Assembly (NCBI GenBank): GCA_943349045.1
Contig: CALQZC010000006.1
Location: forward strand, 1 to 36,992
Origin: Candidatus Peribacteria bacterium
Lineage (GTDB): Bacteria > Patescibacteriota > Gracilibacteria > UBA1369 > UBA12463
DNA: 36,992 bases
Direction of reading: 5' to 3'
The translations under genes and the position numbers were made by a program. This document shows, piece by piece, positions 17,848 to 24,100 of this stretch. A model generated the notes under the pieces. The model had not been told where the DNA came from. It did no database searches and saw only the letters and a list, made by a program, of their open reading frames with translations. Position 1 is the stretch's first letter, and each line of letters starts with the position of its first letter.

Positions 17848-17876
17848 TTCACGGAAAGCTGATTTTGTGATACAAT
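17848..17876 (+). promoter_or_regulatory. promoter for the 17910/18227 gene unit
   Basis: TTCACG (17848-17853), 17-nt spacer ending TGA, TACAAT (17871-17876): extended -10 architecture. Confidence 0.6.
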
Positions 17877-17909: not shown

Positions 17910-18230
17910 ATGGAAGAACAAACCAAGATTGCCGAGCTCATAAAAAACTCCCGAGCCCTTTCCGAAGACAAAAAAGAACTCTATCTCCAGAGTGTCTTAT
18001 TTTTTTCGCAGGAAACCCTGAAAATTTTACAGTCACTACTAGAACATGAACAGGAAACGCTTGCGGCCATTCATGCTGAGGAACTAATTGAGCGAGAAAA
18101 AATAAACCAGGCTGCCGCTCTAAGAATTGATCAAACCTTTAAAAAAGCGCTTACATTCGCGATGGCCGATCAAGAGGCTGGAGAGAAAGAAGGAGCGGAG
18201 GACTTGTTACAAAAACTCGATCAACTATGA
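17910..18230 (+). CDS. small charged, coiled-coil-like hypothetical protein (106 aa)
   Basis: ORF MEEQTKIAELIKNSRALSEDKKELYLQSVLFF...; stop overlaps the start of the next gene (ATGA). Confidence 0.75.
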   Translation: MEEQTKIAELIKNSRALSEDKKELYLQSVLFFSQETLKILQSLLEHEQETLAAIHAEELIEREKINQAAALRIDQTFKKALTFAMADQEAGEKEGAEDLLQKLDQL

Positions 18231-21200
18231 GAGTACCACGTTGTCATTACCGGAACACCTATAAGCATGACCACACCTTCATCTATCTAGAAGCTGGCCA
18301 GAATACCGCGAAAGCTCCAGAGGCCATTCAGAAAAAAGAGGCCATCCTCAAAAAAGATGTCATCGACGAAAAAGCTCTTCAGGAAAAGATGACGTCAATT
18401 CAAAATAAAATTGATGCATCACCGCTCGATGCGGAGCATAAGGAAAAGGTAAAAGCAGAACTAAAAAAAATGGATAGTGAGCACGCCGACGCGATCGGTA
18501 AGCTCAGCAACGTCACGGAAAAGTCTCTCAAGGCCGCAGGAGAAAAGTTTCAAGAAGATCTCAAGTATTTCGAAATTCGACCCGAGGTCGTATTTCTTTT
18601 CGACACGATCAATAGCTCAGAGTTCAAAGAAATCCAGAAGCAGCAGCCGAACATACGGGCATTGGAAACAAAGACAAAAGCCGCAGCAGATTTGTATCGC
18701 TCACATCTGATGGCTAATGGCGAGTCCGCTCCAGGTCACGAGACGGATTTGGAAGGACACATGTTGGCAATACAGGCGCTCTACGCTGGATTGGAACCAG
18801 TCGTACAGCAGAAAGAGCATCTGAGTGGTGGAGATGAGAGCCAGCTCAAGACATTAGAAAAAATACTGGGTGAGAAAAATAATTTCACGCTCGCGAACTT
18901 CAAAGAAAATGCCGGCATCCATGGTGGTATCGAGAGCAGTGAGTCAAAACTCAGAATTCCAGGAAGTCTCGTAGAGCTGCAGGGTCGACAACAGGTGATA
19001 GAAAATAATCTCACTCGCATACGAAGCATTCTCTATCGCACCACAGGTAATCCTAAGTACGAAGCAGCCTACACGCAAGAGACCAAAGCAAAGCAAAACG
19101 CACTCACCGGTCAGGTAGCTGCCACCATGGATGCCCTGCAGGCTGCCCCCTACGAAGTAGAGATAAAAAAACATGCTCAAGAGAAACTTGGCAAACTTGG
19201 AACAGAGTTGCAAGACCTCCAGAACATGCGCGGCAAAGATCCCATCAATGCACAAAGAGGGGCAGTCGATCTTCTCCAACGACTTCGAGGATTCACCAAA
19301 GGATACAGAGTGGGTGATGCAGATCAGGATCTCAAGATGGTAGAACTCAAAAAATACTCAGACGTAGAAAAAGCATTCCATAACGGTGTGCAGCAATACA
19401 TCGGAGAAACAGAAAACCTCATCCTCGATGCGACGACAAACAACCCTTCCATGAAGACATATCAGCAGGAGGCTATAAGCGTCATAAGTAATACACAGCC
19501 ATTTGTGAGTAGTATTGGCACGCTCTTCAAGCAGATGCAAGCCGGTAAAACACCAAGTGAGTCTGATATGAAAATGTTCCACGAGGATGCCAACAGAATT
19601 CTCCTAGACCCAACCTTCAATAAACTCGCAGGTTCAGATGCCAATCAATTCTTTGGGAATCTCAAAATTCCAGATGAAGCAACGTCACCACGACTGCATG
19701 AAGCGATGACGAAGATCAAAGATATGCAGGACAAAGTAAGCGCCTACATGAAAACTCTTAACGTTCTCACGCGACAGGTCGTGGGAATAAAAGGCCATGG
19801 CGTGGGACTCGAAGCCTTCCTCAAAGACGCAGGCAAATTTTTATTGGTCACCACCGCAGCCGTTGCAGGAGCGGTCGCCATGACAGCCCTTGCCCCAGCC
19901 ACAGGTGGTGCGTCGCTTGTTGCTGCTAAAATTGTCGCCACCTCCCTCGGTGCCGCCATTGGTGCCAACTACATGACTGCCGCCATCGAAGGAAACACCG
20001 ATGCCATCGGCACCGAAAACATGCTCAAATCCTGGGGCCAAGGCATGCTATTCTCTGGCGGCGGGATGATCGCAGGTCAGGCCCTCGGCACGGTCCTCGG
20101 TAAAAGCGCGCAGGTACTTTCCAAGACACTCAATATCGCACCCGATAAAATTTTCACCGCTCCATCTATCCAGACAGGCATCAAAACTTTGGGCCTGAAA
20201 GGCTATCTCCAGCAAGTGGCCTCAGAAACCAAAGAAGAAATGTTCGAAGAAGCCATGCAAAAAATAGGTGAAGGTCTCGCTCCAAACAACCCATATCTCG
20301 GCTTCGTATTCTCGCTTATTCCATCCGCATCTGGCAAGGCGCGCGACATTCTCCACGCTGGAGGGATCGAGAGCACGATAACCAATAGTGGCGTAGAAGT
20401 AGAGTACGATAATGTGGAGAACGCGGTTAAGGCGCTCGTCAAAGCACAAGCACCAGCAGAGGTGGTGGACGCCGTAAAAAACAATGTAGCCGCAAAATTA
20501 ACACAAAATGGAGTAGATATAGTCATTCGTCCATCGCCGGAAATCGAAGCTGCTGCTCGTAAGGCAGGTCTCGATGTTGTCACAGAGCAGCAATTAAGAG
20601 TGAAGGCCGAAGAGCTCCGCGAAAAAGCCGATAAGGCAAAAGCTGACGGTAAGCCAGATGCAAAGCTGGAAGCGAAGGCCCAGGATGCCGAGAGGGCATT
20701 CCGAGAGGCCGAGATAAAAGCAGAGACTTCTCTCGTTGCAGAAAAAGAACTCCTTCTGAAGCAACATCTCGATGGCATGTGTCCATGTCATCATGGAACG
20801 ATGAGTGCGATAGGCAAGGTCGATAGCACGGGAAAAGATGTTTTCGAAAGGAGTAAGCAGCTCGATGCAGCCCTCGCAAGAATGGATGCATATCAGGCAT
20901 CAGTCGACCAAGACGGACACGTAACCAAAATGCGTGAGAAATTTTCCAACGAAGCTCTCGACAGTACGACTGAGGCAGGAAAAAAAGTCGATGCGGCTCT
21001 AGCCGGTCAGCAAGTTGAAGTTGAAGTACGCCTTCCAGATGGAACAAGAAAGACGGAACAGATCGCAATTCGAAAAGAATTACTCACTCCCGATACGCTT
21101 CTCAAATTAGCATCAGGTGAACCGCTGGAGATGGGAATGTATGATACATATTTACATAAACATCTTTCGGAAAATCTGAGTAGTTCTCTTGATGATGCCA

Positions 21201-23392
21201 TCAAGCCCAACAAGCAAGATAGTCCTGAGACAGTGAGCTATAAAGAAAAATTAAAAAATACACGCGGCCAGATTCTAGAAGCAGCAAGAAAGGGTGATGC
21301 AGCAGCTATAGATGCGCTTCTTGATTTTGCAACGGATAAGCAGAAGAAATTCATAAAAGATGGATTAATGGGGGCATTTGAGAAATCGCAGCAGGGTACG
21401 GAAGTTTTCAAACGTAGTCATGCCGAAATGAATGCGGAAGGAAAGGACATCTCAAGGCAATTCATGAGTGATACGGTGAATAAAATGTTCGACGATTTCG
21501 CTAGAAATTATGAAAAAGAAAATCCTGGCCAGAAAATTGATCAAGCAGCGCTTGAAAAAATAAAGGGTGAAATCATGAAGGCAGGTATAGATCAGCACAT
21601 TGATAATCCACCCCAATACGTATCACACGGGTTTGATCACTCACTTCGCGTGATGGAAAATATATCAACTATTCTGAAAGGAAGTCCTGGAGCCGTAAAG
21701 GGCATGATGGAAAAATACAATGTCACCGAGTCACAGGCTCGACTCATAATGTTGATGACCGGAGTATGTCACGATTATGGCTATCCAACCGTTGGAGACA
21801 TGAATAAGTCTCTCCATGCGATCACGGGAACCTATCGCTTCATCACGGATATCGCGATGCCGCTTGCGAAGGCCATAAATCTCGACCTTTCTAATCCCGA
21901 TCATCAGAAGCTCATCAAGAACTTCGCAAACAGTATTGAGTGTCACTCAGCCGATAAAACAGATACCACATACGAGAATGAAAAGGGAGGTAAGGATAAG
22001 CTCGACTTCGATCGAAAAATTACCGTTGAACTCATTATTCCTGGAACCGATATTACGTATACGCAAGAATTTCTCTTTATGAAGAGTACATTTGATACCT
22101 ATCCGGGCGGTCAAGATGCGATATCGGCCAATATTCTCGATTTCTATCGGAAGAACAATATTCCGATCACGGGAAAGTTTCTCGTTGAAGGAGGTAAATT
22201 CGAAGGTCGTTATGTCGATCTCCCTGGATCAAAGCAAAAAGGCTCACTTCCAGCAGGCATAGCCTATCGAGGAGCAGAAATGAGCACTCGAAAAGTTGAT
22301 GAAAACGGAAATATCGTTACCGCCTCGAGACACACGCTACCGAGCGAAATGGAGGCCACCGGTTCAAAAGAGTTTAAATTCGACCCCCTCCTAGCCCTCG
22401 TTCGATACGCCGACAACCTCGATATGCAAGAGAGTCGCTTCTCCGACTTCCAAAAGACGCCAATATTCAAGCGACTCTTTGAGCGTATGGGTGCGGAACG
22501 ATCAATGAGAACTGAAGTAGGGGAGCAAACTATTTCCAACGCCCTGAATGATGCTCTGTCGGGAAATGAGGTGCACATACCAACCATAGACGCCCTTCCA
22601 AAATCAGCAGACGGAAAGCCTATCCTCTATGAAGGAGAACTCCTCACGCTCACGAAGGCGCTCATCGAGCAAAATGGCAAGTTAACCGATGATGAAAAAG
22701 CAAGGCTCAGCAAAGATGAGGCGAAGGCCCTTGTCGAAAGCCGAACAAAAGAGCTTCGAGCCAGAAATCTCCCTCGCCTTCTCGAGCTTGTACGTACGGC
22801 TACTCTACAGAAATTTGGTGATCCCCCAGTATCACTCACGCCCGAGGCACATAACACGATCATTGAAGCCCTCAAAGATATCGTTGCCAATAGCGCAAAC
22901 TCACCAAAAGATCTGAAAAATAAGATACAGAGCGTCTTGTCCACCATTGCCCTCGCGGATGAAAAAGCAAATATACCAACGGAACAAAAATATCTCGATC
23001 TCATCGACAAGTATATTGGTACCGTCAACGAAGTTTCCTTCAGGCACTTCGGTGGATGCCGCCCGATCGACAAGATTGATGTACAGAACGGTGTTATGGC
23101 TCTCACACTCAATCCTGAGGTAGTGAAAAGATATCTGGGCCTAGTAGCTGCAGAAAAGGTGCCAGGCCAAAGTGTACCAATCAATATTCCTGTGAATATC
23201 TATCAGATTTGGAGAGGTATCGAAGCCTATGAGTCCTTGACAGTAGATGGTAAAAAGATGAAACTCAAAATATCCATGAAAGGTACTCCAGACTTCGAGT
23301 TTGATCCAAATAAAGTAAATGATGATGAATCCACAAGTATGCTCTTTGCTGAGGCTTACCAGAAGTGGGAATCTGCAAATGTACAAAAATAA
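18227..23392 (+). CDS. giant multidomain protein (1721 aa) with coiled-coil-like N-terminus, central hydrophobic segment and HD-superfamily phosphohydrolase-like domain
   Basis: Uninterrupted 5.2-kb ORF. HD-type motifs HGFDHSLRV (H1134/H1138), CHDYGYP (H1182-D1183), LVRYADNLD (D1396); hydrophobic FLLVTTAAVAGAVAMTALAPATGGASLVAAKIVATSLGAAIGANYM. Confidence 0.85.
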   Translation: MRVPRCHYRNTYKHDHTFIYLEAGQNTAKAPEAIQKKEAILKKDVIDEKALQEKMTSIQNKIDASPLDAEHKEKVKAELKKMDSEHADAIGKLSNVTEKSLKAAGEKFQEDLKYFEIRPEVVFLFDTINSSEFKEIQKQQPNIRALETKTKAAADLYRSHLMANGESAPGHETDLEGHMLAIQALYAGLEPVVQQKEHLSGGDESQLKTLEKILGEKNNFTLANFKENAGIHGGIESSESKLRIPGSLVELQGRQQVIENNLTRIRSILYRTTGNPKYEAAYTQETKAKQNALTGQVAATMDALQAAPYEVEIKKHAQEKLGKLGTELQDLQNMRGKDPINAQRGAVDLLQRLRGFTKGYRVGDADQDLKMVELKKYSDVEKAFHNGVQQYIGETENLILDATTNNPSMKTYQQEAISVISNTQPFVSSIGTLFKQMQAGKTPSESDMKMFHEDANRILLDPTFNKLAGSDANQFFGNLKIPDEATSPRLHEAMTKIKDMQDKVSAYMKTLNVLTRQVVGIKGHGVGLEAFLKDAGKFLLVTTAAVAGAVAMTALAPATGGASLVAAKIVATSLGAAIGANYMTAAIEGNTDAIGTENMLKSWGQGMLFSGGGMIAGQALGTVLGKSAQVLSKTLNIAPDKIFTAPSIQTGIKTLGLKGYLQQVASETKEEMFEEAMQKIGEGLAPNNPYLGFVFSLIPSASGKARDILHAGGIESTITNSGVEVEYDNVENAVKALVKAQAPAEVVDAVKNNVAAKLTQNGVDIVIRPSPEIEAAARKAGLDVVTEQQLRVKAEELREKADKAKADGKPDAKLEAKAQDAERAFREAEIKAETSLVAEKELLLKQHLDGMCPCHHGTMSAIGKVDSTGKDVFERSKQLDAALARMDAYQASVDQDGHVTKMREKFSNEALDSTTEAGKKVDAALAGQQVEVEVRLPDGTRKTEQIAIRKELLTPDTLLKLASGEPLEMGMYDTYLHKHLSENLSSSLDDAIKPNKQDSPETVSYKEKLKNTRGQILEAARKGDAAAIDALLDFATDKQKKFIKDGLMGAFEKSQQGTEVFKRSHAEMNAEGKDISRQFMSDTVNKMFDDFARNYEKENPGQKIDQAALEKIKGEIMKAGIDQHIDNPPQYVSHGFDHSLRVMENISTILKGSPGAVKGMMEKYNVTESQARLIMLMTGVCHDYGYPTVGDMNKSLHAITGTYRFITDIAMPLAKAINLDLSNPDHQKLIKNFANSIECHSADKTDTTYENEKGGKDKLDFDRKITVELIIPGTDITYTQEFLFMKSTFDTYPGGQDAISANILDFYRKNNIPITGKFLVEGGKFEGRYVDLPGSKQKGSLPAGIAYRGAEMSTRKVDENGNIVTASRHTLPSEMEATGSKEFKFDPLLALVRYADNLDMQESRFSDFQKTPIFKRLFERMGAERSMRTEVGEQTISNALNDALSGNEVHIPTIDALPKSADGKPILYEGELLTLTKALIEQNGKLTDDEKARLSKDEAKALVESRTKELRARNLPRLLELVRTATLQKFGDPPVSLTPEAHNTIIEALKDIVANSANSPKDLKNKIQSVLSTIALADEKANIPTEQKYLDLIDKYIGTVNEVSFRHFGGCRPIDKIDVQNGVMALTLNPEVVKRYLGLVAAEKVPGQSVPINIPVNIYQIWRGIEAYESLTVDGKKMKLKISMKGTPDFEFDPNKVNDDESTSMLFAEAYQKWESANVQK

Positions 23393-23425
23393 AGACTTTT
23401 TAATTTCTAAAATAAAAATCAATCC

Positions 23426-24100
23426 ATGGATACATTAGAACACTTTGATACCGACAATATGATTGATCTGACCCTTCCGGAAAATGAAGCAGTAGTAAGT
23501 AAGATGAAAGATATGGGAGAGGTGGGACAGTTCGTACTTTTACTCCTTGAGCGGGCAAAAAGCGAAGGAAAATTACTGACGCTATCAGGCCTAGGTACCG
23601 GAAAAATATCGCTCCTCTACGACAACGATGGTGTTAAATTTTGTTTACGACCTTCTATGGATGTTGGAGATGAGGGGATCTCCCATGCTCACTACGCTCT
23701 GCGCACCTACTTCTACAAGAAACCCTGGGTTCGCGATATCGTGTCACGAATTCCGGATAACGGATGGGTTGAAATTTGGCCTGTTACCTTCGCTGAGATA
23801 TGCTCCGGCCTCGTCGGAGAGAAATTCAATCTTGATGTTATTGAACGTCAGTATCCGAACGTTAAATATCCAAAAATCATAAGTATTATTGAATCAGAAA
23901 CCAAAGGTCTTGATCAATACTTCACATATAGGCCAGCCCCAGGATTAGAGTTCTTTAGAATGGTATTTCGGGACGAGACGGTGAAAGAAGCCTACTTGCA
24001 GGACGACCAGGTGGCACTGCAGCCATTAAAGGATATTCTTGCGCAGGCACTTCCAAAAATTCACCAAAAATTACTCGAAGCAAACGGAGAAAATCATTAA
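23426..24100 (+). CDS. hypothetical protein (224 aa)
   Basis: ORF starting 33 bp after the giant gene, same strand; no recognised family. Confidence 0.78.
   Translation: MDTLEHFDTDNMIDLTLPENEAVVSKMKDMGEVGQFVLLLLERAKSEGKLLTLSGLGTGKISLLYDNDGVKFCLRPSMDVGDEGISHAHYALRTYFYKKPWVRDIVSRIPDNGWVEIWPVTFAEICSGLVGEKFNLDVIERQYPNVKYPKIISIIESETKGLDQYFTYRPAPGLEFFRMVFRDETVKEAYLQDDQVALQPLKDILAQALPKIHQKLLEANGENH

Follow-up and report, generated by a model that had tools for sequence, protein, structure and literature searches.

The question raised by the locus described here is what a protein of 1721 amino acids (aa), encoded between two small genes of equally unfamiliar sequence, does in a bacterium with a tiny genome. 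The locus lies on contig CALQZC010000006.1 of a Candidatus Peribacteria bacterium (assembly GCA_943349045.1), the 36,992 nucleotides of which are called the window below. The organism belongs to the Candidate Phyla Radiation (CPR) and is related to Peregrinibacteria; its genome assembly (1.01 Mb, 54 contigs) is listed as 100% complete. The three open reading frames (ORFs), their coordinates and common strand (Table 1), the ATGA at 18227-18230 in which the stop of the 106-aa ORF overlaps the start of the giant, and the 33 bp between the stop of the giant and the 224-aa gene are as given in an original prediction made from the sequence of the window. None of the three proteins had a match above cut-off in Pfam, NCBIfam or PADLOC, and they are therefore effectively unannotated. 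The prediction described a single three-gene unit. Comparison with relatives, mostly contigs of metagenome-assembled genomes (MAGs), showed two modules joined in one operon instead: the small gene with the front part of the giant (the trunk), and the rear part (the tip) with the 224-aa gene. We propose, with a probability of about one half, that the locus is a polymorphic-effector-like system of CPR bacteria with an HD-type tip and its cognate partner.

The giant proved to be a mosaic. When it was compared with 89 genomes of the order, matches in 20 of them covered different stretches of the protein, and in an all-against-all BLAST of the fetched giants the N-terminal, central and C-terminal segments each matched different partners. 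The locus is syntenic in five congeneric genomes (DHH-phosphoesterase gene, small gene, giant, sometimes an extra gene, yebC). In blocks of 60 residues, the giants of the window and of genome G001 shared 40-80% identity up to approximately residue 720, 30% in 721-780 and background identity beyond; their tails did not match (E 0.69). G001 is a fragmented assembly with 6% contamination and its giant is split over two contigs (102-residue overlap, 95% identity), so the joined form is an assumption. The giants of G002 and G004 showed the same pattern of like trunks and different tails, with the break near residue 840. The same HD tip was also found on different trunks, in the window, in G045 and in G065/G035/G114. 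Other giants end in a calpain-like protease (G047, G046, G114), a metallophosphatase (G029) or unnamed modules, and FHA occurs beside calpain, HD and metallophosphatase among the tip domains of signalling type. At one chromosomal locus a conserved front and small gene are thus combined with differing enzyme parts at the rear, and the modular architecture of the family is close to certain. Two other regions deserve mention. In L046 (5168-19001), near a weak match to the core of the giant, consecutive genes in one direction encode proteins of 314-999 aa, two of which are 55% identical over their first ~240 residues. In L040 (14726-18706), close to the HD giant of G035, a protein of 1,326 aa contains repeats of a Cys-rich unit (DDCNTCxCGEDGQISCT).

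We read the tip of the window giant as an HD-superfamily hydrolase because of its invariant residues, the presence of Pfam HD in relatives, and dGTPases as the best, though weak, fold matches. An HD motif set had been predicted within residues 1080-1450, and the residues H1134, H1138, H1182-D1183, H1197, H1240 and D1396 were indeed invariant in the alignment of the window tip with 11 relatives. In the second tip signature HFGG was invariant, and the N and C nearly so. An HD profile built without the window sequence still recovered the window tip (8e-102). Pfam HD itself scored 17.5 bits on the window module where 22 are needed (E 0.0053); it was present in 6 of 12 tip relatives (best E 2.4e-6), and the distant relatives L044, L065 and L135 exceeded its cut-off. 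The AlphaFold2 model of the tip had a predicted template modelling (TM) score of 0.81. The top 12 matches of this model in the PDB, obtained with Foldseek, were all HD dGTPase structures, at weak values (best E 0.066, probability <=0.38, TM about 0.2), so that the structural check proposed for the HD fold gave a weak indication of it. When the HD and partner profiles were compared with PDB sequences, the matches were at chance level, as were the viral fold matches. The tip resembles the HD hydrolases of deoxynucleoside triphosphates (dGTPase, the E. faecalis HD protein, SAMHD1) in its H..HD..H..H..D pattern and, by a weak match, in its helical fold. It differs from them by a ~150-residue insertion before the last Asp and by an extra C-terminal part containing HFGG. 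Most likely it is a metal-dependent enzyme whose substrate would be a nucleotide or some other phosphoester. In an 834-aa Peregrinibacteria protein (L044, 647-3151), domains binding cyclic nucleoside monophosphates (cNMP) are combined with an HD module distantly related to the tip.

Judged by the company that it keeps, the 224-aa gene is a companion of the HD tip and not of the trunk. The HD giant of G045, the trunk of which is different, is followed by a homologue of the 224-aa protein (E 6e-18). Proteins of 148-321 aa are encoded downstream of the HD tips of G065, G035 and G114 and behind the stand-alone HD proteins of one Parachlamydiaceae, one Uhrbacteria and one Nomurabacteria genome, and they appear to form one family. 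The partners in the window and G045 gave a co-linear profile match to the other HD partners with a score of 27.9, compared with at most 20.4 in 30 shuffles and 12-14 for unrelated downstream genes; since this match is the sole basis of the link, we consider the link moderate. Across the 382 genomes of the phylum the partner profile matched the three genomes in which the HD profile had its matches, and gave one weak partial match besides. Other tips carry other genes or none. Each of the two calpain tips of G046 is followed by a small protein (124 and 130 aa, 65% identical to each other), and the tip of G002/G003 has its own 183-aa downstream gene. The 224-aa gene is thus replaced or missing when the tip differs, and the trio is not conserved as such. 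The 224-aa product is most likely an inhibitor that would silence the tip in the producer, or else a chaperone; a role as regulator of the tip may also be considered. Its structural model was poor (predicted local distance difference test score 60.6) and had no structural match. A CYTH-like extension of the partner in L059, suspected by eye, had no match in Pfam and is not claimed, and no support was obtained for placing the genes that come second in two Parachlamydial loci (L134, L135) in the partner family.

The 106-aa gene, for its part, follows the trunk. A homologue lies directly upstream of the giant, at -29 to +30 bp, in 20 of the 26 family giants examined; what is conserved with the trunk is therefore the pair and not the trio, and the coupling to the giant noted in the window extends to the family. 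The same 4-bp overlap was seen in seven pairs. Eight of the 20 upstream homologues were outside the set from which the small-gene profile was built, and a profile from which the window copy and its nearest relative had been left out recovered the window copy at E 5.7e-17. Almost all pairs are within the order of the window organism, which consists of ultra-small CPR bacteria. The ~100-aa protein is probably a targeting factor or chaperone that would bind the N-terminal region of the giant. A homology between it and the N-terminus of the trunk itself (hhalign E 0.0009, probability 23%) is not claimed, and most profile matches outside the order, near 1e-8, resembled generic coiled coils and were not counted. 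Weaker matches (~1e-12) in another family of the order, beside 620- and 669-aa proteins (L106, 8773-11561; L107, 1-2749), are possibly a diverged version of the pair. NUDIX and cysteine-desulfurase-like genes flank the small gene and giant in G040; in G042 an orphan small gene (L103, 2552-2932; G042:C6) stands beside such genes, as if the giant had been lost.

The trunk has a conserved front of its own. Profile A7, built without the window protein, recovered its N-terminal module in the window giant (E 3.2e-12), and across the 382 genomes its matches were confined to the order. Among 308 ORFs, eight had the leader motif within their first 45 residues, and all eight are members of the family; since the pattern had been made from this family, the count measures specificity and is not an independent discovery. 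After the coiled coil, several relatives have a repeat resembling peptidoglycan (PG)-binding domains (Pfam PG_binding_1, up to 6e-5), a part that also matches the L,D-transpeptidase YcbB domain (E 6.5e-4); unlike these trunks, the window giant lacks it. The single hydrophobic block that had been noted in the window giant lies at residues 537-580, and an equivalent Ala/Gly-rich block recurs in most trunks.

Table 1. Features of the locus in the window.
Feature	Position	Strand	Basis
Promoter-like element TTCACG-17-TACAAT, extended TG	17848..17876	+	Suggestive only
Helical, charged 106-aa protein encoded upstream, conserved with the trunk	17910..18230	+	Held-out profile E 5.7e-17; upstream of 20/26 giants
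1721-aa giant (trunk and HD tip)	18227..23392	+	ORF; family comparison
Trunk, residues ~1-770	18227..20536	+	Conserved at the same locus across the genus
N-terminal leader motif HTFIYLEAG, residues 16-24	18272..18298	+	Family form [RK]x[LF]VFFxxG
Conserved coiled coil in the N-terminal module of the trunk	18353..18616	+	Profile A7 E 3.2e-12
Hydrophobic Ala/Gly-rich block, residues 537-580	19835..19966	+	Hydropathy scan
Exchangeable C-terminal tip, residues ~780-1721	20564..23389	+	Common to the giant of G045 from residue 911 onward
HD hydrolase core, H1134/H1138 to D1396	21626..22414	+	Invariant in 12 aligned sequences; Pfam HD E 0.0053, below cut-off
Second tip signature NxxSxRHFGGC, residues 1601-1611	23027..23059	+	12-sequence alignment
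224-aa cognate partner of the HD tip	23426..24100	+	G045 homologue E 6e-18; co-linear profile match

The surroundings of the locus are ordinary, with genes for IPP (isopentenyl pyrophosphate) transferase and for RecJ-like and DHH phosphoesterases upstream, and yebC and a malic enzyme gene downstream. The promoter-like sequence that had been proposed ahead of the small gene is present; such sites were no more frequent in the region than in shuffled sequences (7 versus a mean of 8.0), and for this reason the element is no more than suggestive. Of the three outcomes named beforehand as fatal to the prediction, namely no structural match to the HD fold, loss of the H and D residues in homologues, and homologues of the three proteins never co-occurring, none was observed, the structural match being the weak one.

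The distribution of the HD tip is patchy. As the C-terminus of giants it was found in G045, G065, G035 and G114, and as stand-alone proteins of 560-750 aa in Nomurabacteria, Uhrbacteria, Parachlamydiaceae and Paraburkholderia; several of the relatives with the module were Candidatus Peregrinibacteria, and some of these records, L053/L054/L057/L064, are the same sequences as L036/L039/L040/L044 from the order or class of the window organism, with identical lengths and ORFs. The HD profile matched 3 of 382 genomes of the phylum, and the module was present in 5 of 121 Paraburkholderia genomes and, within the Parachlamydial family, in 3 of 39. A phage or plasmid origin was rejected, as the stand-alone Paraburkholderia HD protein had no match in phage or plasmid collections. 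The Paraburkholderia HD proteins stand directly behind rpoC in the three loci read (L060/L131/L132), and two further loci (L061/L063) have genes of the same sizes. A similar arrangement exists in an archaeal lineage with small genomes: one Micrarchaeota MAG encodes two giants (1,865 and at least 1,787 aa; L065, 5666-11263 and L066, 2-5365) with a distant HD tip, one of them beginning with a signal-peptide-like N-terminus, and the genes directly behind the two belong to one family (products of 299 and 261 aa, 53% identical).

The effector reading is favored because a conserved front, a helper gene, an exchanged tip, stand-alone cassettes and a tip-specific downstream gene together make up the pattern of polymorphic toxins. 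In those systems (PMC3482391), as in the family described here, a conserved N-terminal part carries an exchangeable C-terminal enzyme that also exists as a stand-alone cassette, a hydrophobic segment precedes the tip, and a small downstream gene changes with the C-terminal module; in the present family this last feature was seen for the HD tip and the calpain tips of G046. The giant differs from them in having no recognized trafficking or pre-toxin domain, and some tips in having no downstream gene. In the part of the polymorphic toxin catalogue that was available (PMC3482391), "HD domain", "HD superfamily", "phosphohydrolase" and "calpain" were not among the terms. A second likeness is to the LXG effectors of the type VIIb system, the helical N-terminus of which is bound by the small helical targeting factors Lap1 and Lap2 (PMC9600955). 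Here too a small helical partner is encoded with a protein of polymorphic C-terminus; the differences are one helper instead of two, far larger trunks, no LXG domain by Pfam and no WXG100 protein. Type VII secretion was ruled out as the export route, as WXG100 proteins were found in 0 of 8 genomes of the window's family by a search that was positive in Bacillus subtilis. A TraG/VirB4-type ATPase is encoded in seven of these eight genomes, that of the window included, and Patescibacteria carry a derived type IV secretion system (PMC12102498). A type IV system is thus the likeliest, although unproven, export route, its tie to the locus being our inference.

In the model that we propose, the ~100-aa protein, translationally coupled to the giant, would act as its targeting factor or chaperone by binding to the N-terminal region. 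The trunk, with its leader motif, coiled coil and hydrophobic Ala/Gly block, would carry the giant to or across the envelope. The C-terminal tip would be the payload, swapped by recombination at a fixed chromosomal locus, and in the window this payload would be a metal-dependent HD hydrolase acting on a nucleotide or other phosphoester, possibly toxic after transfer into another cell. The 224-aa product would be the tip's own partner, keeping the tip silent in the producer or serving as its chaperone.

Several observations weigh against this model. Secretion genes are absent from the immediate surroundings of the locus. The window giant shows no evident Sec signal peptide, and Pfam and NCBIfam find no recognized trafficking or secretion domain in it; there is only the family-specific leader motif and, in relatives, the PG-binding-like repeat. 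Self-protecting immunity is not general, since no small gene follows the tips of G001 and G004, and the Paraburkholderia HD proteins are without a downstream partner. In addition, the FHA, calpain, HD and metallophosphatase modules also fit intracellular signaling. Together with the missing export signal, this fit makes a membrane-associated signaling or regulatory enzyme the main rival, a serious possibility that we hold to be clearly less probable: the trunk would be a scaffold anchored by the hydrophobic block, the tips interchangeable enzymes, and the small and 224-aa proteins subunits. The charged helical composition of the window giant and the association of a related HD module with cNMP-binding domains in L044 are in line with it. 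A house-keeping regulator would not usually have a tip that is replaced at a single locus among congeneric genomes and scattered over distant phyla, nor relatives with a recurring PG-binding-like repeat in the trunk.

The same repeats might point to a cell-surface giant for host attachment, of which the tip would be an enzymatic ornament. Such a role was proposed for the giant proteins with predicted membrane localization in the related CPR bacterium Vampirococcus lugosii (PMC8080830), to which the present giant is likened by size and lineage. We consider this unlikely, as the window giant has neither a Sec signal nor repeated adhesion domains and the tips are enzymes of cytoplasmic type. A phage- or defense-type cluster acting by abortive infection through nucleotide depletion, conceivable for three unassigned genes in one operon as HD nucleotide hydrolases serve in phage defense, was rejected as very improbable in view of the absence of PADLOC matches for the window proteins, the lack of phage or plasmid matches for the stand-alone HD relative and the house-keeping synteny fixed in the genus.

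The effector reading can be taken one step further, tentatively: it is possible that this is a hitherto undescribed, contact-delivered effector system of CPR bacteria, with its own leader motif, a dedicated ~100-aa targeting factor and perhaps VirB4-type export, through which ultra-small epibionts would act on their hosts or rivals, and with the HD hydrolase as a new class of payload. For CPR bacteria, with genomes of ~1 Mb, a life on or against other cells is thought likely. Together with its dedicated partner, the HD-hydrolase module extends over CPR and Chlamydiae; in Paraburkholderia it occurs without the partner. Further members of the family may be searched for by a simple rule, a small helical gene followed by a giant and a partner. 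With a constant half presumed to serve delivery, a helper gene and enzyme tips that are exchanged and in part bring a partner gene along, the family provides concrete effector candidates in these organisms.
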